Part shown: one piece after another, positions 12,258 through 58,583 of the stretch
How the letters are laid out: each line of letters opens with the position of its first letter
Position numbering within the stretch: the first letter of the stretch is position 1
From: Myxococcota bacterium
GTDB lineage: Bacteria > Myxococcota_A > Polyangia > Polyangiales > Houyiibacteriaceae
NCBI GenBank assembly: GCA_028284955.1
Contig: JANQQS010000005.1
Location: 65,946-129,945, forward strand
Reading direction: 5' to 3'
Length of the DNA stretch: 64,000 nt
Made by a program: the position numbers and the translations under genes
The notes under the pieces: generated by a model
Seen by the model: the letters and a program-made list of their open reading frames with translations, nothing else
Told to the model about the DNA's origin: nothing
Databases searched by the model: none

Positions 12258-12536
12258 TCACATCCCAAACGCGACCCACGCGACGATCGAAGCCACCGCC
12301 ACCGCCACCGCGCCAATCACGATCACGAACCGACGACGGCGGCGACGAGCTCGCTGTACAACGGATCGCGCAATCGAATACGACTGCTCTTCCGACAACC
12401 ATTCCGCAGGGCCCTGACCCTCTGTGAGCGGCTCCCACAACAGGCCCGCGCCCTCTTCGGTCTCATGCTCGCTAGCCGCCCGTTCTGCCGGAGCAGCTAA
12501 ATCCGTTTCGCGATCTGATTTCGATGCTGGACTCAC
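12258..12536 (-). CDS. Small tail-anchored protein coupled to an ECF sigma factor; anti-sigma candidate
   Basis: The protein has 92 residues. The GTG start overlaps the TGA of the sigma gene (GTGA) with GGGGAAGG 6 bases upstream, a clear translational coupling. The first 65 residues are acidic and soluble, then RARRRRRR precedes one hydrophobic helix (FVIVIGAVAVAVASIVAWVAF) that ends the protein. This topology puts the acidic domain in the cytoplasm. Position and topology suggest an anti-sigma factor, but no zinc-binding HxxxCxxC motif is present and I recognise no family. That role is an inference. Confidence 0.8.
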   Translation of the reverse strand: MSPASKSDRETDLAAPAERAASEHETEEGAGLLWEPLTEGQGPAEWLSEEQSYSIARSVVQRARRRRRRFVIVIGAVAVAVASIVAWVAFGM

Positions 12537-13150
12537 GGTGCACCTTCCCCCGCGCACGATCGCACCCGCAGATGGGAAACACCATGCCGAATCCGGCTGC
12601 GTACCGTCTCCGTCGGGATCGACAGCTCGGAAGCGATTTCCGCGATGCTCATGCCAAGCACGTGGTGCATGACGACCGCGATGCGTTGTTTTCCAGGTAG
12701 CTCGTCAAGGCGATCGACCAACCGACGGCGCGTGAGATAGCGCTCGCCGGGCGCCTCGCGGCTCGGCAGCTCCTCCGAAGGCACAAGTGAAGAACGCTGT
12801 CGTTCACGCGCTCGTTTGCGCTGGCTCGCGAGCGTTACGCGGAGCACGATGCCATCCACCCACGACGCAAAGCGCCCTTCGCCTCGAAAACTCGGAAGTC
12901 GTTCGATGACTTTCACCAGCGCGTCCTGAGCAATATCGTCCACCGATTGATCTCCCCGCACCAAATAGCGCACCAGATTGCGTACGCGAGGAAGCAGCTC
13001 GACCACCAGCGATTCGGTCGCCTTCGTGTCTCCCTTCGCGGCCGCGAGCACGCGCGGGTCGATGCCCCCCGGCGCATCCACCCGGCCGCGCGCGCGTTCC
13101 CGACCCGTCACGGTCAGTTGAAATCCCCTCGCATAAACATCAGCGTACAT
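12533..13150 (-). CDS. ECF-type RNA polymerase sigma factor
   Basis: The protein has 205 residues. Region 2 is visible as LVRYLVRGDQSVDDIAQDAL and SFRGEGRFASWVDGI (core binding and -10 contact), and region 4 as LDELPGKQRIAVVMHHVLG followed by the helix-turn-helix MSIAEIASELSIPTETVRSR. The length is typical for a group 4 sigma factor with a short N-terminal extension. It heads a run of genes on the minus strand: tail-anchored protein, trypsin, then kinase. It presumably directs transcription of its own operon in response to an envelope cue relayed by the coupled membrane protein. Confidence 0.92.
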   Translation of the reverse strand: MYADVYARGFQLTVTGRERARGRVDAPGGIDPRVLAAAKGDTKATESLVVELLPRVRNLVRYLVRGDQSVDDIAQDALVKVIERLPSFRGEGRFASWVDGIVLRVTLASQRKRARERQRSSLVPSEELPSREAPGERYLTRRRLVDRLDELPGKQRIAVVMHHVLGMSIAEIASELSIPTETVRSRIRHGVSHLRVRSCAGEGAP

Positions 13151-13225: not shown

Positions 13226-13299
13226 GTGCATCCTGGCGGGGGAGTTTGGGTGAATCGGCGGGGTCGTACCCCGACGAGAGGGTCTGGGTGCCAGACCCT
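13226..13299 (+). repeat. Dispersed paired-hairpin element, copy A
   Basis: The element reads GGAGTTTGGGTGAATCG, then hairpin CGGGGT-CGT-ACCCCG, a short spacer, then hairpin GGGTCTGG-GTG-CCAGACCC. It lies 7 bases past the stop of the beta-helix lipoprotein gene (13306) and upstream of the sigma factor. Inverted and diverged copies lie at 27998-28385. The second hairpin could also act as a terminator for the gene at 13306. Confidence 0.8.
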
Positions 13300-13305
13300 A
13301 AAAAA

Positions 13306-14763
13306 CTAAAGCAATAGACTCTCGCATCTGCCCTCTACGCATACCAGCGGGTCGCAACAATCAGAATCCCCTTCGCACGCGCCACAAGCGCCATCCATGC
13401 AGGCTTGGCTGCTGTCGCACATGCCGCAGGTTTCACACGTGGTGGTGGTGGGAGGCGCTTCGCAGGTCTTGCCCGCTTCGAGAATCGCTCGGTCGTAGTG
13501 AATGGTGGCGCGGCCCGCGGCGGCGAAATCTTTCGCGAACACCGACCCGAACACTTCCAGCGCTCCGGCTCCGGTCACCACCGCTTGCGGCGCATAGAGA
13601 TTGCCTACGAACGCGCTCCTCCCCGCCAAAGCAATCGCTTGGTCTCCGGCAACGTATACGCGCGTCGCGGCAGGGCGCTCTTCGGAACCGAACGTGATCG
13701 TTCCTGCGGAAACCAAGTTTCCTTTGATGAACACATCGAGCTCGCCTTTCGTGCCGAGCTCAACTTCGAGCGACCCGGCCATGGCGACGTTCTTTTCGAC
13801 AAAGAGCGCGGTGCGACCGTTGACAACGAGTGTAAGCGCGCCGGCTCCCCCTACCGAATCGACATAGAACCGACCGCAGGGCAGCTCCACGCGCTCTTCG
13901 CCTGCCACGTTGGTTAGCGCATCAGCATCGAGATCTGCTTCGTCGTTGTCGTTGTTTTCAGCTGCCGCGGCTACGAGCGCTGAAACATCGAGCAAATCCT
14001 CGGCATCACAGGCGCAGGGAGCGTCTACCTGAACGTCTTCACGCACAACCTCGCCGGCTACCTCCAGCGAACCCGTGAAAGCCTGTAGCTCGCCCGGCGT
14101 TTGAATCAAATCGCGCCCGATAGACAGAGTCCCAGCTCCTACAAGAGTGCCATCGAGAGAAAAATCTCGTGAGATGTCCATCCCCCCCGCGGCGCCAAAC
14201 CTCCCCGACGCAGAAACATCGCCGAGCACTTCGTGGTCTCCGCCGGCGAGGAACAGCCCCTTCGATCCAGCGACCGTCAACGACCCGCCCACGCTTATTT
14301 TGCCGCCAACACTGAACACATCGTTGGTTCCCACCGCACCGCCGCCCATATCGTCGGCGGCAAACGAACTATCGCTCGAATCCCCCGCATCGGTCGTGAG
14401 CGCGCCGGCCACCGACACCGTTCGACACGCGCAGAGCGCAGAGCGAAACGTGCGCGCGGCGATTTCTCCGGCACACGTTTTGGTGATGCTCGTGCTGTCG
14501 CCGACCACCACGGGCGCTCCTGTCCCAGCGCAAAACGATTCGCGCGTGCCCCCGATCGTCGACGCGCTCGCTTCCGCCGATTCTTCGCTGGCGCTCACCC
14601 CATCTACGCCCCCGTCTACGTCAGCCTGGGGCGCGGTGTCGCCGCATCCGCCAAACCCCAAGAGCGCCCCGGCAAACGCCACCAGCACCAAAGCGTCGCT
14701 TCGACACTGATTCCCTCGCTGATGTCTGCCGTTTGTGGAGAAAAAACCCGCGAAATAGCCCAC
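13306..14763 (-). CDS. Bactofilin/DUF7305-like beta-helix lipoprotein with Cys-rich end
   Basis: The protein has 485 residues. GTG start chosen for its GGAG 6 bases upstream. Lipobox is FGGC. The body is a series of short beta repeats (KISVGGSLTVAGS, DVSASGRFGAAGG, TLVGAGTLSIGRD) like polymer-forming/bactofilin proteins. It is followed by a segment of the type seen in DUF7305 and pilus-assembly-associated proteins (GELDVFIKGNLVSAG, RVYVAGDQ, FVGNLYAPQAVVTGAG, VFGSVFAKDF). The last 50 residues are Cys-rich (CETCGMCDSSQACMDGAC). It is likely a rigid, surface-exposed fibre or adhesin. Its partner genes are unknown. Confidence 0.78.
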   Translation of the reverse strand: MGYFAGFFSTNGRHQRGNQCRSDALVLVAFAGALLGFGGCGDTAPQADVDGGVDGVSASEESAEASASTIGGTRESFCAGTGAPVVVGDSTSITKTCAGEIAARTFRSALCACRTVSVAGALTTDAGDSSDSSFAADDMGGGAVGTNDVFSVGGKISVGGSLTVAGSKGLFLAGGDHEVLGDVSASGRFGAAGGMDISRDFSLDGTLVGAGTLSIGRDLIQTPGELQAFTGSLEVAGEVVREDVQVDAPCACDAEDLLDVSALVAAAAENNDNDEADLDADALTNVAGEERVELPCGRFYVDSVGGAGALTLVVNGRTALFVEKNVAMAGSLEVELGTKGELDVFIKGNLVSAGTITFGSEERPAATRVYVAGDQAIALAGRSAFVGNLYAPQAVVTGAGALEVFGSVFAKDFAAAGRATIHYDRAILEAGKTCEAPPTTTTCETCGMCDSSQACMDGACGACEGDSDCCDPLVCVEGRCESLLL

Positions 14764-14882
14764 GCCAAGCTCCTCTGCCCGCACCGATCCCGCCGATCCA
14801 AACGGCGGCCTTCCGGGCTGTCGTACTGTGTAGGTGCGCGGACCCTCCCGAACGGGTCAAAGAAAGTTCAAACTTTTTCGAG

Positions 14883-18029: not shown

Positions 18030-18053
18030 CGCAGCATCCTTCGACAGTGTTCG

Positions 18054-18157
18054 GCGACATCATTCAGCGACATCATTCAGCGACATCATTCAGCGACATC
18101 GTTCAGCGACATCGTTCAACGATGTGGTCTTGCGACATCGTCCTGCGACCGTTCGAA
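18054..18157. repeat. Tandem array, eight 13-bp units (GCGACATCATTCA)
   Basis: Five units are identical or differ at one base and three more are degenerate. The array fills most of the gap between the stop of the small peptide gene and the start of the adenylate-forming enzyme gene. A period of 13 rules out a coding repeat. Confidence 0.9.
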
Positions 18158-27165: not shown

Positions 27166-27897
27166 CTATGGAGTGAAGTACGCGCTGCATATCGAGTGAC
27201 TCGACACGGAGCCGCCGGTGAATATGTGATAGCCAGCCTTGCACATCTCGCGCACTTCGGCAGCGGTGAACGAGCATGTTCCTTCAGCGAGTGCCGCGTT
27301 GCTCCAATAATCTCGCCCGTTGGCCGACGCGATGAACGTGTCCGAAGCGCTGGCGCCGCGTAGCTGGTGAATCACAACGAACTTGTACTCCTCGGGCGAT
27401 ACCGGCGGATTGTGTTTCGTGGACCACCGCTTGCGCCCGATTTCGACGATGAACGGCAAGTCCATTCCCGTCGACTCCTGAATGACTGTCCAAGGCAGTT
27501 CCTGCCACCTTTTCTTAGAAACCGTCCAGTTTCCAGGGGACTGACCCGCAGCGTCTGGGAACGTCCGTGTTCCCCATCCTTGGGGCAGATGACCGTTGAA
27601 ATCTCCCGTCAACGCAAGCACTGGCACCTTGCCAGCGGATTCTCCCAGCTCACCAATCGGCTCCCGCATGCGAAGCGAATAGACGAACGGACTCCGGCTC
27701 GTCTCAGCCCGACATCGACCCTGGTCCTCGTATAGGTACTCGAGTGGAGACCCGTCGAACGCAAATTTATCGGTCGCGTCACCGGCCGCGTCCCCTTGCT
27801 CCGCAACGCAACCCGCCGACATCGCAACGAATACCGAGGCGACCAACGCCCCCCGAATCTGCGCATTCCAAACCAACTGATTGCCAACCAACATCAT
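27166..27897 (-). CDS. Lipoprotein of unknown function
   Basis: The protein has 243 residues. Two adjacent ATGs are preceded by AGGTAGGGA. Lipobox SAGC, mature CVAEQGDAAGDATD (acidic tether). The body contains FVVIHQLRGASASDTF and several Trp residues, and ends with four Cys. I recognise no domain. It converges on the Gly-rich lipoprotein gene with 55 bases between stops. Upstream lies the hairpin repeat cluster. Confidence 0.78.
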   Translation of the reverse strand: MMLVGNQLVWNAQIRGALVASVFVAMSAGCVAEQGDAAGDATDKFAFDGSPLEYLYEDQGRCRAETSRSPFVYSLRMREPIGELGESAGKVPVLALTGDFNGHLPQGWGTRTFPDAAGQSPGNWTVSKKRWQELPWTVIQESTGMDLPFIVEIGRKRWSTKHNPPVSPEEYKFVVIHQLRGASASDTFIASANGRDYWSNAALAEGTCSFTAAEVREMCKAGYHIFTGGSVSSHSICSAYFTP

Positions 27898-27997
27898 TCC
27901 CTACCTAACTCGTCTCCCGCCGATTTCGGCGCCCTCCCCGGCAGCCGCGCGGAGTATTCCACAAAGTCGCCAGGACGCTACCGAGCTAGTTTGTCTA

Positions 27998-28385
27998 GGG
28001 TCTGGCACCCAGACCCTCTCGTTCGGGATACGATCCCGAACGATTCACCCAAGCTCCCCCGCCAGGAACCACGTGACCTGGTTGCGTGAGGGTAATCTGC
28101 TGGGGCCCCGCCGCTCCGCGGTGGGGCGGACGCGAAGCGGCCGGAGTTGGGAGAGGGACCCGCGCGGGTCGTACCCGCGGGGGGGAGGGTTTGCCTCAAA
28201 CCCTCCGAACAACACAGTCACCCAAGCTCCCCCGCCAGGAGGCACGTGACATGGTTGCGTGGGGTCAAACTGCTGGGGCCCCGTCGCGGAGCGATGGGGC
28301 GGCCGCGAAGCGGCCGGAGTTGGGAGGGGGGCCCCGCGGAATCGTATTCCGCGGGGGGAGGGTTTGCTTCAAACCCTCCAGAAAT
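27998..28385. repeat. Cluster of paired-hairpin elements (copies B, C and D)
   Basis: Copy B (27998-28041, inverted relative to copy A) has hairpins GGGTCTGG-CAC-CCAGACCC and GTTCGGGAT-ACG-ATCCCGAAC. Copies C (about 28134-28204) and D (about 28314-28384) have GGAGTTGGGAG, a hairpin with a CGT loop (CGCGGGT/ACCCGCG in C, CCCCGCGGAAT/ATTCCGCGGGG in D) and GGAGGGTTTG/CAAACCCTCC. A 173-bp direct repeat with CACCCAAGCTCCCCCGCCAG starts at 28046 and 28219. The region of about 490 bases between genes has no credible coding frame. Confidence 0.88.
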
Positions 28386-28392
28386 ACTGCAG

Positions 28393-30063
28393 CTACAGCC
28401 GAATGACGGGGTCGTCAGCCTCGTTCGTGTCGCGGGAGCTCGAGCAGCCGCGGTCCGCTTCGTCGATGTTGCCGTCGCCGTCGTTGTCTACGCCGTCGCT
28501 GCAATGCGGGTTCGGCGACTCGAACGCGTCAAAGGAGTCAAAGCAACCCGGGTCGTCGGTGTCGACGTCGCCATCTCCATCGTTGTCGATGCCGTCGCTA
28601 CACTGCGGGGGATTGGGGAACTCGGTGTTGTCGAAGCGGCTGGTGCACCCCGGATCAGGATCGGTGCGGTCGCCCTCGGCAACGCCTCCCTCTTCACCAC
28701 CATCGTGGTCGATGAAGCCGTCGCCATCGTTGTCGATGCCGTCGCTGCACTGCGGCATGAACGACCCGCCTTCGGATGTGTCTCGCTCCTGCTCGCAATC
28801 AGGATCGTTCGGGAAGTCGGTCAGCCCGTCGCCGTCATTGTCGAGCCCGTCGAAGCACGCCGGCTCCGGGAACTCGAAATCGCTCGGGAAGTCGCACCCG
28901 GGGTCGTCCGGGAAGTCGATCAGCTCGTCGCCATCGTTGTCGATGCCGTCGTTGCACTGATTCTTGAACTCGGTCGGGTCGTCGGGGCTTTCGCAGCCGC
29001 GGTCGCCGGGGAAATCCATGTTGCCGTCGCCATCGTTGTCGATGCCGTCGCTGCACTGCGCGACCGCTGACCCAGCTTCTGAAGAATCGAACGGCGATTC
29101 GCAGTCCGGGTCTTCGCCGAAGTCCGTAAGCCCATCGCCATCGTTGTCCGCGCCGTCGCTGCACTCACGCGAACCTTCGCGATCGAACGGGCTGGTGCAT
29201 CCCGGGTCGTTCGGGAAGTCGGTGAGCCCGTCGCCGTCGTTGTCTTGGCCATCGGAACACTCGGGGCCGTCTTCGGAGCTATCGTTGCGACTGCTGCACC
29301 CGCGGTCCTCCGGGAAATCGACCAGGCCGTCGCCGTCATTGTCGACCCCGTCGGCGCACTGGCGCGGCGACTCGGAGCCATCGCTGGGGCTCGAGCAACC
29401 GAGGTCGTCGGGGAAATCGATCAAGCCGTTGCCGTCGTTGTCTGCGCCGTCGGAACACTGCGGGTCGTCTTCGCGCGAATCAGTGGGGCTTGAGCAGCCC
29501 GTATCTTCCGGGAAGTCAGTCTTGCCGTCGCCATCGTTGTCGATGCCGTCGATGCACTGCGGCGTATCTTCCTGGGTATCGGAACGGCTCGAACAGCCCG
29601 GGTCCTGCGGAAAATCAGTGCGGCCATCGCCATCGTTGTCTTGGCCATCCGAGCACGCCGGTTCAGGCGACTCGGCAAGGTCGGTGCGGCTCGCGCAGCC
29701 TGGGTCTTCAGGAAAGTCAGTCTTGCCGTCGCCATCGTTGTCCTGGCCGTCTGCACATTCAGGATCGGGCGCCTCGGTAGGATTGAATCGGTCGTTGAGG
29801 CAGCCCGGATCGCTGGTGTCGATCAGACCATCTCCATCGTTGTCTTCCCCGTCCGAACACTGGGGGTCGGGCTCTTCGGTAAGATTGAAGGGTTCGCCGC
29901 GACAGCCGGGATCTTCCAAATCCACCAAGCCATCTTCATCGTTGTCTTTGCCGTCGGCGCAAACCAAGTCGCCAACCTGCAGCGCGTCTACGCAGCCGCC
30001 CGCAAACACGAGCGCAAAGAGCCCCAGCCACACGAATCGCTTATGCAAAGAAGATCGTCGCAT
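28393..30063 (-). CDS. Lipoprotein with fifteen thrombospondin-type-3-like calcium-binding repeats
   Basis: The protein has 556 residues. An eight-G run lies just before the ATG. Lipobox AGGC. Nearly all of the mature protein is fifteen units of about 33 residues built on CSDGxDNDGDGxxDxxxDPGC, each with an acidic calcium loop and one disulfide pair; the thirteenth unit carries an insertion. The family is common on myxobacterial surfaces and usually forms a rigid, Ca-stabilised stalk. No other domain is present. The periodic opposite-strand frames here are artefacts of the repeats. The gene is divergent from the heme protein gene across 400 bases. Confidence 0.93.
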   Translation of the reverse strand: MRRSSLHKRFVWLGLFALVFAGGCVDALQVGDLVCADGKDNDEDGLVDLEDPGCRGEPFNLTEEPDPQCSDGEDNDGDGLIDTSDPGCLNDRFNPTEAPDPECADGQDNDGDGKTDFPEDPGCASRTDLAESPEPACSDGQDNDGDGRTDFPQDPGCSSRSDTQEDTPQCIDGIDNDGDGKTDFPEDTGCSSPTDSREDDPQCSDGADNDGNGLIDFPDDLGCSSPSDGSESPRQCADGVDNDGDGLVDFPEDRGCSSRNDSSEDGPECSDGQDNDGDGLTDFPNDPGCTSPFDREGSRECSDGADNDGDGLTDFGEDPDCESPFDSSEAGSAVAQCSDGIDNDGDGNMDFPGDRGCESPDDPTEFKNQCNDGIDNDGDELIDFPDDPGCDFPSDFEFPEPACFDGLDNDGDGLTDFPNDPDCEQERDTSEGGSFMPQCSDGIDNDGDGFIDHDGGEEGGVAEGDRTDPDPGCTSRFDNTEFPNPPQCSDGIDNDGDGDVDTDDPGCFDSFDAFESPNPHCSDGVDNDGDGNIDEADRGCSSSRDTNEADDPVIRL

Positions 30064-32667: not shown

Positions 32668-34410
32668 CTAGCGCTCGGAAAGGTCGACAGCCATCGTCGT
32701 CGGATGACTGCTCGACGGTTTTTTAGGCCGAGCCGCGCTGATCTCTTTGCCACATCGCTGCCACCATGTATCCGCGTCTTGTTGGGTCCAGTGCGGTATG
32801 GGTACGCGCTCGAGGGCTTCGGCCAGGGCTCGTCCGGAAGGCGGACGGTCGCCAGGGCGCTTTTGAAGGCAGGCCATAATTACCGCCTCGAGCTCTGGGG
32901 GAATCGATTCGCCACCTCCTGATAACGGGCGTTCTGAACACAGAAGTTCTGAAAACGGACGCGGCGTCGACTGAAGATGGTGCGAGCAGACCTCCATGAT
33001 GGTGTCCCCATCAAAGACGTGACGGCCTGCTAAAAGATAGTAGCCCACCGCGCCGAGCGCGTAGAGATCGCTTCGGGGAGACACTTTGCCGGGAACTTGA
33101 ATCGCTTCGGGGCTCAGATAGTGGGGCGTTCCCATCACGAGATTTGGGTCGGTGCGATCTGTAGCGTCGGCGTCGATGCTTTTGACGAGACCGAAATCGA
33201 GGACTTTGGTCACATCGCGCTCGCCTCCCTGGTCGACGAGCATGATGTTGCTGGGTTTGATGTCTCGGTGGATCAAGCCGGCCGCATGCGCCTCGTCGAG
33301 CGCACCCGCGGCGTGCCGAAGGATGTGTACGACGCGGGCGGGAGGCTGCCGGCCGATAGCGTCGACGATCTCCTGCACCGTCGCACCGTGTAAGAGCTCC
33401 ATCGCGTAATAAAGGAGCCCATCGGGGGTCTTTCCATAGTCATAAATCCTGACGGTATGGGGATGGGTGAGTTTTGCAGTGAGCTGAACCTCGCGGCGAA
33501 ATCGTTCTTGTGCCGTGACGCTCACGCGTTCTTTTCGCAGCAGCTTGATCGCTGTGGGGCGTTTCAGCATCCCATGGGTAGCCTGAAACACGACCCCCAT
33601 TCCGCCTTCACCGAGCTTGTGCTCGAGGATGTACTGCCCGAGGCGTTTGATGTCGCGAACTTCTTCGCGAAGCCCGTGAATGACTCGAGAGGCCAGCGAG
33701 GCAAGGGCAATGACCAACGTCCACCACATCGTCGTGACGGAAGCCGAAGTGATCGCCACGACTTGATTCGACTCGGGAGGCTGCTCCCAGCCGAGCGCCC
33801 TCCAATCGATCTGCGTGTCCGAATGAAGATAGTGCAGGTACATCGCGATCACGAGCGGAACCCCCATCGCGACCCCGAGCAGGAGCGTATGCCGGGCGGA
33901 GCTCGGCACGAAGACCGCGCGAGCAAACAAAAGAAACGAAAGGACGAAGGCGGTGCTGGTGTCAGCTCCCGCCTCCGTGGGGATATGCACCCCCACCGCG
34001 ATGTACAGCCCTGTCGTCGCCAGTACTCCCGCGGTTTCAATAACGACGATGGTTTTGACCCCGTGCGCGCCTTCCCGGCAAACCAACCACATCTGAGCGC
34101 AGGGGAGAATCGCAAACAACTGAAACAAAAAATCGGGGCTCCCAAGTTCATCGACTAGCGTGCCGAAAGCGAGCGCAATCAAAAGCCGACACGCAATCGC
34201 AGTCACTCCGATCAGCGCGCCGACCTGTCCGAACGCTGCCACTCGCTTTTGCAGGAACGCCCGCGACTCTACTTGCTGCAGCTCTGCTTGCTGCAGCTCT
34301 GCTTGCTGCAGCTCTGCTTGCTGCAACTCTGCTTGCTGCGACTCTGCTTGCTCTCCATGCATCCCGATTCTCTGGTTCTCGGAAGAGGTCACGACTCGGG
34401 AATTCTCCAC
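32668..34410 (-). CDS. Ser/Thr protein kinase with six N-terminal TM helices
   Basis: The protein has 580 residues. The first 50 residues contain a 15-base tandem repeat giving four QQAEL units. Residues about 55-245 form six TM helices (for example VGALIGVTAIACRLLIALAF and TTMWWTLVIALASLA), a sensor-like membrane module. The kinase domain then has LGEGGMGVVFQA, lysine in TAIKLL, LIHRDIKPSNIML, KVLDFGLVK and GTPHYLSPEA; all catalytic residues are intact. The start is taken as GTG, 22 bases inside the preceding barrel gene, implying coupling; an ATG 48 bases later is an alternative. This TM-first order is the reverse of most bacterial receptor kinases. Confidence 0.9.
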   Translation of the reverse strand: MENSRVVTSSENQRIGMHGEQAESQQAELQQAELQQAELQQAELQQVESRAFLQKRVAAFGQVGALIGVTAIACRLLIALAFGTLVDELGSPDFLFQLFAILPCAQMWLVCREGAHGVKTIVVIETAGVLATTGLYIAVGVHIPTEAGADTSTAFVLSFLLFARAVFVPSSARHTLLLGVAMGVPLVIAMYLHYLHSDTQIDWRALGWEQPPESNQVVAITSASVTTMWWTLVIALASLASRVIHGLREEVRDIKRLGQYILEHKLGEGGMGVVFQATHGMLKRPTAIKLLRKERVSVTAQERFRREVQLTAKLTHPHTVRIYDYGKTPDGLLYYAMELLHGATVQEIVDAIGRQPPARVVHILRHAAGALDEAHAAGLIHRDIKPSNIMLVDQGGERDVTKVLDFGLVKSIDADATDRTDPNLVMGTPHYLSPEAIQVPGKVSPRSDLYALGAVGYYLLAGRHVFDGDTIMEVCSHHLQSTPRPFSELLCSERPLSGGGESIPPELEAVIMACLQKRPGDRPPSGRALAEALERVPIPHWTQQDADTWWQRCGKEISAARPKKPSSSHPTTMAVDLSER

Positions 34411-53402: not shown

Positions 53403-53933
53403 CTATTCGATGATGAAGTAGACCACGGGAATGGCGAAGATGCCCAGAAGTAGCCCACAGAAAAGCGTCAAGAAGAAGTGTTTTACGGTAGTTCCTAGCG
53501 AGAGACGACCTTCGGAGCGGCGTAGCAAAAGCCACGCGCTCGCGGTGGCAACGGCCACACAAATACTCACCACGATGCCCGACGCTTGCACCCAGCAATC
53601 AGGGCAATGGGCAAACGCCGTGCGCGGAATGAGCCAGAGTGCCGCGACGTAGACACCAGCCACGGCGATCACGCCGCTGGTACCTTTGGAGGCGATATCA
53701 CCTTGGCTACCGAACGTCGTGCCTTCCAGCGCAACGGGCTGACCATTGATCTTGACGGCCTTGGAGTAGCCCTTGGGTGAAAGACCGCTGCGGCCAACGT
53801 TGGGCAGCGGAGTCGGCACAAAGGGCGCCGGAGGCCCCGGCATCTTGCACACATTCGGCGTCGTCGCCGCCGCTACGCCGTTCGAGCCTTTGGTAACTGG
53901 AGTCTTCGGGCCGTTGATGGTGACCTTGCCCAT
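53403..53933 (-). CDS. PAAR-like (DUF4150) protein with a hydrophobic C-terminal domain
   Basis: The protein has 176 residues. Residues 1-85 are almost identical to the head of the protein at 57053 (VTINGPKTPVTKGSNGVAAA, PFVPTPLPNVGRSGLSP, VKINGQPVALEGTTFGSQGD), the DUF4150/PAAR-like fold that caps type VI secretion spikes and loads effectors. The tail differs: three TM-like helices (VIAVAGVYVAALWLIP, GIVVSICVAVATASAWLLL, HFFLTLFCGLLLGIFAIPVVYF). It could be a membrane-acting effector or a leftover module; an immunity gene is not obvious next to it. No T6SS structural genes are in the window. Confidence 0.82.
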   Translation of the reverse strand: MGKVTINGPKTPVTKGSNGVAAATTPNVCKMPGPPAPFVPTPLPNVGRSGLSPKGYSKAVKINGQPVALEGTTFGSQGDIASKGTSGVIAVAGVYVAALWLIPRTAFAHCPDCWVQASGIVVSICVAVATASAWLLLRRSEGRLSLGTTVKHFFLTLFCGLLLGIFAIPVVYFIIE

Positions 53934-53960
53934 GATGCGGGGCTTATCGGTCGGAAGCGC

Positions 53961-54026
53961 GGAGAGTTGCGTGCGAAATCAGTCTTCTCAGGTCCGGGAA
54001 ATTTCTTTCCCCGTCCCCGTTCTTTC
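53961..54026 (+). repeat. Module-flanking direct repeat, copy 2
   Basis: Nearly identical to 58081-58137 (GAGAGTTGCGTGCGAAATCA, GTCTTCTCAGGTCCGGGAAA). Lies just upstream of the PAAR-like gene start. Confidence 0.85.
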
Positions 54027-57052: not shown

Positions 57053-58045
57053 CTAAATTTGAATTACTTGGAGCTTACCAGGAGGCATACCCAACCCTCC
57101 GGCAAGTTTCCTGATTTGCTGCTCTGCTTTGTCATGACCACCTGGAATCTTGTAGATCACACCCATGTCAGCATTTCGAGCGAGCATCACATTGCGCTTC
57201 ATCTGTCTTCTATTGCGGCCGGTCTCATCCTCGCTCTTTGCTGGATAGAAATCCGCTCCGCTCTTGGCTTCAACCGCATGCATGGTGCCGCTTCGATCCT
57301 GACCGACATGATCGATTTCGGCTCCCATAGGCGCTCCGCAGTGTTTGCAAGAATGCGTCACCTTGTGGTCATTCCCAGTCGACAAACAACTGCGCGACTC
57401 GCCGTGGGCGCGTTTCATCTCGCCTTCGGCCCGCAAGATCTCCGGCTCATTATGTTTCGCCGCCGCGTGCTCGTGGCGACCGCCAGGGCTCCGGTCACGA
57501 GCAAGCTGGTTTCTCCGATCTTTGAACTCTTCATCCGTCGGCGGACAATACGGCTCCCCTCCCTCTTCATGCCCAGGACGTGGATCCGCCTGGGACGCAG
57601 TCCCGTATCCGGGCTCCTGCACGATGCCCATCATCGTCGCCGCGTTCGGCGGGCTACCTCCGGGCCCGCAGTTGTTGAGCATCGGGTCGCCTAGCAAGTG
57701 CACCCGCTTGCCTTCGATTTTGACGTTCATCGAACCGGGACCGATGAACTTCGTGATGCCATGCGCCGCGGAAGACACGATCCCGCCGCCAGTACCTTTA
57801 GAGGCGACATCACCTTGGCTACCGAATGTCGCGCCTTCTAGCGCAACGGGCTGACCATTGATCTTGACGGTCTTGGAGTAGCCCTCGGGTGAAAGACCGC
57901 TGCGGCCAACATTGGGCAGCGGAGTCGGCACAAAAGGCGCGGGAGGCCCCGGCATCTTGCACACGTTCGGCGTCGTCGCCGCCGCTACACCATTCGAGCC
58001 TCTAGTAACCGGAGTTTTCGGGCCGTTGATGGTGACCTTGCCCAT
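57053..58045 (-). CDS. PAAR-like (DUF4150) effector with C-terminal PD-(D/E)XK nuclease domain
   Basis: The protein has 330 residues. The DUF4150/PAAR-like head covers about residues 1-130 (VTINGPKTPVTRGSNGVAAA to VKIEGKRVHLLGDPML, CGPGGSPPN). A charged linker follows. The C-terminal toxin domain (about 225-330) has a small Cys/His patch (HSCKHCGAPMGAEIDHVG), then MHAVEAKSGADFYP, which gives a D...ExK core, and RNRRQMKRNVMLARNADMGVIY, as in restriction-endonuclease-fold toxins. It is probably delivered by a type VI system encoded elsewhere and degrades nucleic acid in competitors. The immunity candidate follows after 13 bases. Confidence 0.85.
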   Translation of the reverse strand: MGKVTINGPKTPVTRGSNGVAAATTPNVCKMPGPPAPFVPTPLPNVGRSGLSPEGYSKTVKINGQPVALEGATFGSQGDVASKGTGGGIVSSAAHGITKFIGPGSMNVKIEGKRVHLLGDPMLNNCGPGGSPPNAATMMGIVQEPGYGTASQADPRPGHEEGGEPYCPPTDEEFKDRRNQLARDRSPGGRHEHAAAKHNEPEILRAEGEMKRAHGESRSCLSTGNDHKVTHSCKHCGAPMGAEIDHVGQDRSGTMHAVEAKSGADFYPAKSEDETGRNRRQMKRNVMLARNADMGVIYKIPGGHDKAEQQIRKLAGGLGMPPGKLQVIQI

Positions 58046-58080
58046 GACGCGGGGCTTATCGGTTGGAGGTGCGGAGAGTT

Positions 58081-58405: not shown

Positions 58406-58450
58406 CTCACAACCCGAAGGTCGTCGGTTCAAATCCGGCCCCCGCAACCA
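58406..58450 (+). other. tRNA-fMet 3-prime fragment (attachment-site-like)
   Basis: From the anticodon loop (CTCACAACC, where initiator tRNA has CTCATAACC) through CCGAAGG, the T arm GGTTCAAATCC and CCCCGCAACCA, this matches the 3-prime half of initiator tRNA. No 5-prime half is present within 80 bases, so it is not a gene. The rest of 58138-58720 holds no credible coding frame; an inverted pair (AACCCCTTGT near 58279, ACAAGGGGTT near 58375) is its only other feature. Confidence 0.8.
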
Positions 58451-58555: not shown

Positions 58556-58583
58556 TGGTTGCGGGGGCCGGATTTGAACCGAC
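58556..58583 (-). other. Inverted copy of the tRNA-fMet 3-prime end
   Basis: The minus strand reads a perfect 28-base copy of 58423-58450 (GTCGGTTCAAATCCGGCCCC, then CGCAACCA). No anticodon or D arm accompanies it. Together with 58406-58450 it marks the left side of the islet carrying the AAA/TOPRIM gene. Confidence 0.85.

Follow-up and report, generated by a model that had tools for sequence, protein, structure and literature searches.

REPs close to stop codons affect translation, and MITEs are defined by terminal inverted repeats, a target duplication and a related transposon. The BOX elements of pneumococcus consist of end boxes that enclose tandem middle units, which vary in number. The closest described systems are the REP and BIME elements, for which the excerpted text of Di Nocera et al. 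(2013; PMC3733652) distinguishes families tagged with GTAG and with CGTC. According to the same excerpts (PMC3733652), REPs are intergenic sequences of high copy number with heterogeneous stems and mosaic arrays, they occur mainly in convergent or codirectional gaps, near the 3' ends of genes, and their ends often supply a TAG stop codon; those excerpts make no mention of myxobacteria. REPINs are described, in the excerpted text of PMC3116915, as paired inverted REPs. Our search of the literature on REPs near stop codons returned nothing on point, and a repeat of the type reported below did not come up for myxobacteria in our searches, which covered open-licence papers.

The window analysed here, the whole stretch of 64 kb, corresponds to contig positions 65946-129945 in a 6.07-Mb draft genome of 223 contigs (the host genome). 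The strand on which the repeat is read in the order head, hairpin 2, hairpin 1 and A-rich tail is referred to as F, and its complement as R. A covariance model (R1) with 32 training modules, the window copy 13235-13310 among them, recovered four modules in the window, every one with E ≤ 7e-5 (Table 1), in agreement with a direct reading of the sequence. The four copies with a shared two-hairpin order that the preliminary description had reported are thus present; it had left unstated that the copy at 27986-28063 is on the minus strand. Hairpin 1 reads GGGTYTGGGTGCCARACCC in the T modules and GGAGGGTTTGnnnCAAACCCTCC in the I modules, and the latter are located within a 173-nt unit, in an orientation inverted to T. 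The 173-bp direct repeat noted earlier was recovered at 28045-28206 and 28218-28379 (83% identical, spacing 173), and the initial bases of unit 1 are shared with the head of the reversed T module. Fold prediction also agreed with the two paired stems assigned to each copy, since both hairpins were predicted on F in all four window modules, and on R in the two T modules. The folding z-scores of these modules did not single out the F strand, and were stronger on R for the two T modules.

Table 1. Modules, repeat units and palindromes of the element in the 64-kb window.
Feature	Coordinates	Strand	Parts	Evidence
Single T module	13235..13310	+	head GGCGGGGGAGTTTGGGTGAAT; hairpin 2 13256-13276; hairpin 1 13280-13298; A-rich tail	R1 97.2 bits, sequence, predicted fold
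T module, reversed; left end of the composite	27986..28063	-	hairpin 1 27998-28016; hairpin 2 28020-28042; head up to 28063	R1 83.0 bits, predicted fold
First 173-nt unit of the tandem pair	28045..28217	+		repeat search
Extra palindrome in unit 1	28105..28127	+	GCCCCGCCGC..GCGGTGGGGC	sequence, repeat search
I module 1, inverted relative to the T module	28140..28216	+	head GGAGTTGGG; hairpin 2 CGCGGGT/ACCCGCG; hairpin 1 GGAGGGTTTG/CAAACCCTCC; tail AACAACACA	R1 24.7 bits, E 6.9e-5, predicted fold
Second copy of the 173-nt unit	28218..28379	+	162 nt matched, 83% identical	repeat search
Matching palindrome in unit 2	28278..28300	+	GCCCCGTCGC..GCGATGGGGC	sequence, repeat search
I module 2	28313..28389	+	hairpin 2 CCCCGCGGAAT/ATTCCGCGGGG	R1 28.8 bits, E 5.8e-6, predicted fold

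Pfam searches with the genes near the element identified an ECF sigma factor (12533-13150) and DUF7305 (13306-14784), and returned no family for three other genes near the element in the window. One gene beside the composite (28393-30063, minus strand) encodes a secreted-looking protein of ~33-residue repeats of the type CSDGxDNDGDGxxD, corresponding to 99-nt repeats in the DNA, with no Pfam family at E ≤ 0.001. Elsewhere, the window contains a direct repeat of 300 nt (53666-53965 and 57778-58077, 92% identical, 4112 nt apart) and a perfect 28-nt inverted repeat (58423-58450 and 58556-58583, 105 nt between the arms), the arms of which resemble a tRNA 3' end (GGTTCAAATCC..CCA); ARAGORN identified no tRNA in the window. 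Two short tandem arrays, at 34267-34352 and 18050-18122, consist of 15-nt and 13-nt units, respectively, with 95% matching.

The hairpin-1 pattern GGGTNTGGGTGCCANACCC had 227 exact matches in the host genome (106 and 121 on the two strands) and its backward-read control had none, so a chance origin of the repeats was ruled out. The 173-nt unit yielded 99 host-genome matches of any length (E ≤ 10), with tandem runs at a spacing of ~173 nt. The proposed scan of the genome with a covariance model gave at least 151 matches for R1, a floor value because 146 first-look candidates were scored per genome. A reading of 0.916 Mb from the host genome gave 82 T modules, among which hairpin 2 had 30 alleles, and in the 815 kb suited to gene calling, 42 T and 20 I modules formed 31 clusters, 13 of which were single-module; both tandem and mosaic arrays of the element occur in the host. 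Four of the five stretches among the matches listed in a pattern scan of contigs were judged by eye to look like chance, since they lack the hairpins.

Among the 183 genomes of the order, just three had the exact hairpin-1 pattern, namely the host (227 matches) and two genomes of genus g11 (5 matches each), one of which, G031, is Myxococcales bacterium UBA1660; the controls had 0 matches. R1 recognised modules in 6 of the 33 genomes of the family (host, at least 151; G007, 19; G008, 6; G010, 5; G031, 17; G032, 20). With a second covariance model (R2), derived from the modules of g11 and g8, the scan of relatives extended the distribution at E ≤ 0.001 to 17 of the 183 genomes and 9 of the 83 genera of the order, namely g1, g6, g8 and g11 (family f1), g19 (f4), g40 and g71 (f10), and g78 and g82 (f12), the weakest matches being those of g19 (7.9e-4) and g78 (best 2.0e-4). 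The other 166 genomes gave no R2 match at this threshold under the stricter filters applied. Confinement of the copies to the window, set beforehand as a refuting outcome, thus did not occur, the copies being found throughout the genome and in relatives. All six g71 genomes were positive with R2 (7-26 matches among the 26 candidates scored per genome), and our sample from this genus comprises the 42 better-scoring loci among 127 matches, from which 41 modules were obtained by pattern. The g71 core lies inside a larger unit with extra palindromes, many of them bounded by CTAG. Four loci of genus g6 (L139, L144, L150 and L156) have a head-hairpin-hairpin order in different sequences, inside palindromes CCGTTGAAGAAC..GTTCTTCAACGG.

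Covariation of the stems, claimed on the basis of the window copies, was upheld in three alignments, for which the cells reported are counts of sequences rather than independent events. The A2 alignment is an ordinary MAFFT alignment of 32 modules that was not structure-fitted, with rows picked for distinct hairpin-2 alleles; it includes 32 of the 44 modules of A1, the omitted ones being ten whose hairpin 2 measures 23 nt, one that carries a 1-nt deletion and one near-duplicate. In A2, both partners had changed in 10 of 19 pairs, giving 52 cells vs 14.2 for shuffled data, and none of 500 shuffles was as high; when the partners were slid by 1-3 columns, pairing fell from 92% to 26-48%. The A3 (39 matches from g11 and g8, 37 of them distinct) and A4 (91 modules from 9 genera, taken from 60 hand-chosen sources) alignments were structure-fitted, and are therefore biased toward structure. 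In A3, 14 of 19 pairs changed on both sides (82 cells vs 31.2 shuffled) and hairpin 2 was the weaker helix, with 64% of cells paired. In A4, the corresponding values were 18 of 19 pairs and 408 cells vs 124.3, with a covariation score of 0.572 vs 0.176 for shuffled data; further pair types in A4 did not exceed the shuffles (450 of 500 as high). Loss of pairing, the other outcome that had been set as refuting, did not occur in the genome or in the relatives. The variants of hairpin 1 include GGGTCTGG/CCAGACCC, GGGTTTGG/CCAAACCC, GGGGCTGG/CCAGCCCC, GGGGTYTT/AARACCCC and GGGGGACGC/GCGTCCCCC. The invariant part of the core, read on F, is the unpaired frame GGGTGAA(T/G)CG ... CGAGAGGG. The 3-base loop, by contrast with the earlier view that it is constant, is CGT in host copies, TGT in other host copies, and TTC, TTT, CTA or others in other genera.

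The paired changes might also arise without selection, if template switching during replication corrected the palindromes of an otherwise ordinary repeat and so kept the stems paired. Short perfect palindromes are the expected substrates of such correction, and some host alleles are perfect palindromes. However, the commonest hairpin allele of the host retains a mismatch at one pair of the first stem (18 of 82 modules, plus 8 with a near-identical allele). Furthermore, under correction neither strand should be favoured by wobble pairs, and we counted 13 G-U events on F vs 2 A-C events on F (equivalent to G-U on R), events being distinct by genus and pair (one-sided sign test 0.0037, an optimistic p-value, because the trend had been seen before the test). 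We consider this explanation improbable, and a structure maintained by mutation alone was rejected on the basis of the persistent mismatch and the wobble asymmetry. The covariation across nine genera and the wobble counts support the earlier suggestion that the fold is selected as RNA or as a single strand.

With 592 host genes predicted by a self-trained gene caller, none of the 31 host clusters was located inside a called gene. Twelve clusters were found in convergent, 12 in codirectional and 2 in divergent gaps, the other 5 being at contig edges, vs 36 convergent, 154 codirectional and 100 divergent gaps in the background of host gaps of at least 100 nt; convergent gaps were enriched (Fisher p 8e-5) and divergent gaps depleted (p 0.004). 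A same-sense stop codon was present -1 to 31 nt before hairpin 1 in 22 of 29 leading host T modules (29 of 41 T modules, the 12 within arrays having been omitted by hand sorting), vs 6.7% of random intergenic host positions within 40 nt of such a stop. CTAG or CTGA made up the last four bases at 13 of the 22 adjacent host stops, compared with 163 of the 570 other genes (p 0.004 in a post hoc comparison), and the frequency of CTAG within host genes is 3.6-fold lower than outside them. For g11 and g8, a stop was found within 40 nt on the R side in 20 of 33 cases and on the F side in 4 of 33, compared with 11.9% of random positions (ORFs with a minimum length of 100 aa; the 39 matches were reduced to 33 by omitting two duplicate views and four weaker array neighbours). 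In g71, stops lay within 70 nt on R in 32 of 41 and on F in 31 of 41 modules (random 21.5%), so the element sits between gene ends on both sides in this genus and the one-sided rule does not hold in every genus.

Within the window, the minus-strand gene 13306-14784 ends in a TAG stop, and the module at 13235..13310 begins 7 nt behind this stop. The composite (27986-28389) is an exception to the rule for T modules, because its T end is turned toward the start of gene 27166-27897; at its other end, I module 2 has its outer end directed at the stop codon of gene 28393-30063 (minus strand), at a distance of ~15 nt. In the host and in g11, F runs antisense to the gene that the module follows. No replication-strand bias was apparent on one complete chromosome (7 to 5 among 12 hand-sorted modules), on which the turning point of the GC skew lies between 7.3 and 7.9 Mb, one of 13 modules, near the turn, having been omitted. 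A second short repeat, TAGAGCAGTGGTCAGTTTG, is often found between the stop codon and hairpin 1 (L013, L023, L025 and the 21-nt class); it opens with a TAG stop itself, and similar palindromes started by CTAG flank the g71 core.

A location behind stop codons and between convergent genes would also be expected of repeated intrinsic transcription terminators, and a specialised terminator had been among the first proposals. However, just 8 of 58 modules on the R strand had at least four T among the 8 nt that follow hairpin 1, and none of 58 on the F strand passed the T criterion applied there. One sister copy (L125) is placed behind a separate hairpin to which a T stretch is adjoined downstream. 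In the sense of an intrinsic terminator, the proposal was rejected, given the absence of a U-tract after the hairpin, and we regard it as very improbable.

The same position, sense-consistent and right behind stop codons, together with the covariation of the stems, would suit a class of structured RNA working in transcripts, with the spread of copies as a secondary matter. Such an RNA could be a 3'-UTR element of the preceding gene, in which the hairpins would be a predicted exonuclease barrier and the C-rich tail of the R strand a possible Rho site, or an RNA from the F strand. The tail is C-rich and G-poor on R (C 0.41, G 0.20), and two gene ends are occupied by a module in both of the sister species G031 and G032, hairpin 1 differing at one of them by two paired changes. 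However, the wobble pairs favour F, the antisense strand in the host and g11, which favours recognition of single-stranded DNA, or an F-strand RNA, as the reason for the fold, over a role in the 3' UTR. Furthermore, the 166 genomes without a match and an empty site (see below) are not suggestive of an indispensable RNA. An RNA class, such as the undescribed small RNA class among the first proposals, thus appears possible but rather unlikely; the inserted element may have a later effect in the 3' UTR.

At present, the family is best explained as a mobile palindromic element of REP/BIME-like character that is non-coding and non-autonomous, an explanation that we consider probable. In G031, a TGA stop is followed immediately by 147 nt that hold two modules, and the flanks join without them in G032; no clear target duplication was observed at this empty site, and the difference may be either a gain in G031 or a loss in G032. 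The two gene ends occupied in both sisters, set against this mobile reading, also fit a long functional retention. Further points that weigh against it are the lack of a module near any TnpA_REP-like gene (see below), the 7-to-5 split of orientations on the one chromosome and the two-sided stops of g71. Some g71 units have CTAG or CTGA at both ends, as judged by eye.

The statement that no REP-associated transposase is present in the window could be refined, because the host has five TnpA_REP-like genes (L033/L069-L073) elsewhere and none of them has a module nearby. A further 24 were found in five relatives, and all 29 were below the NF047646 cut-off (best host score of 75 bits vs a cut-off of 80). 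None of these 29 loci from six genomes had a module beside it within ~1.5 kb per side, where the contig allowed (wider flanks for three host loci), and movement by an adjacent RAYT was rejected on these grounds. An isolated GGAGTTGGG 9-mer at one TnpA_REP-like locus (L118) is not a module.

Of the three initial proposals, 'REP-like element' fits best. The family resembles REP/BIME in its high intergenic copy number, heterogeneous stems, mosaic arrays and location at gene 3' ends and in convergent gaps. However, REPs are single palindromes of 20-40 bp, whereas this element has two covarying hairpins in a fixed frame and a core of ~65-80 nt. The alignments revealed no conserved unpaired GTAG or CGTC motif at a palindrome end, the letters CGTC beside hairpin 2 being part of a stem and missing from some alleles, and, unlike the GTAG families, the element has no dedicated flanking RAYT (TnpA_REP) gene. 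We therefore retain REP/BIME-like as a working designation, on the basis of copy number, mosaic arrays, 3'-end placement and the empty site, but do not file the family as REP, because its tag, size and enzyme features, when tested, were not those of REPs. T and I modules often form an inverted pair, as in REPINs, but 13 of the 31 host clusters are single-module and there is no RAYT link. As in MITEs, the elements are short, non-coding and of high copy number, with one clean empty site (G031 vs G032) and, in g71, many units bounded by CTAG palindromes; no clear target duplication was observed at that site, and, unlike for MITEs, no related transposase gene was found. The modular build recalls BOX, a likeness by description only; the sequence and host of BOX are unrelated. 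Covarying conserved secondary structure is shared with the structured RNAs of Rfam, but no Rfam family matched the 64-kb window, the element at E ≤ 1 or the loci of ten relatives.

We infer that a single-stranded F would fold and that an enzyme acting in trans may recognise this fold. This enzyme would join DNA at, or next to, Y-T-R-R sites, for example CTAG and CTGA, the target being a post hoc reading. Genes would tolerate such sites chiefly at their stop codons, and copies would accumulate there as a result. Selection for recognition may preserve the fold even as its sequence diverges from genus to genus. After insertion, transcription probably makes the element the opening part of a 3' UTR, where it may shield the end of the mRNA, as has been proposed for REPs.

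A more specific proposal, of an order-wide double hairpin recognised as a single strand, with a fixed frame, paired rewriting of the stems, a mover other than a classical RAYT and landing on stop codons, is put forward as tentative and is more doubtful than the general one. If it holds, many 3' UTRs would have a mobile element as their first structure. The family would combine order-wide structural covariation, a link to stop codons and the absence of both the REP tag and a neighbouring enzyme. The strand-specific wobble pairs and the placement at stops make it possible to ask, as testable questions, which enzyme acts on the folded strand and whether insertions of this kind are reused by bacteria as message 3' ends.
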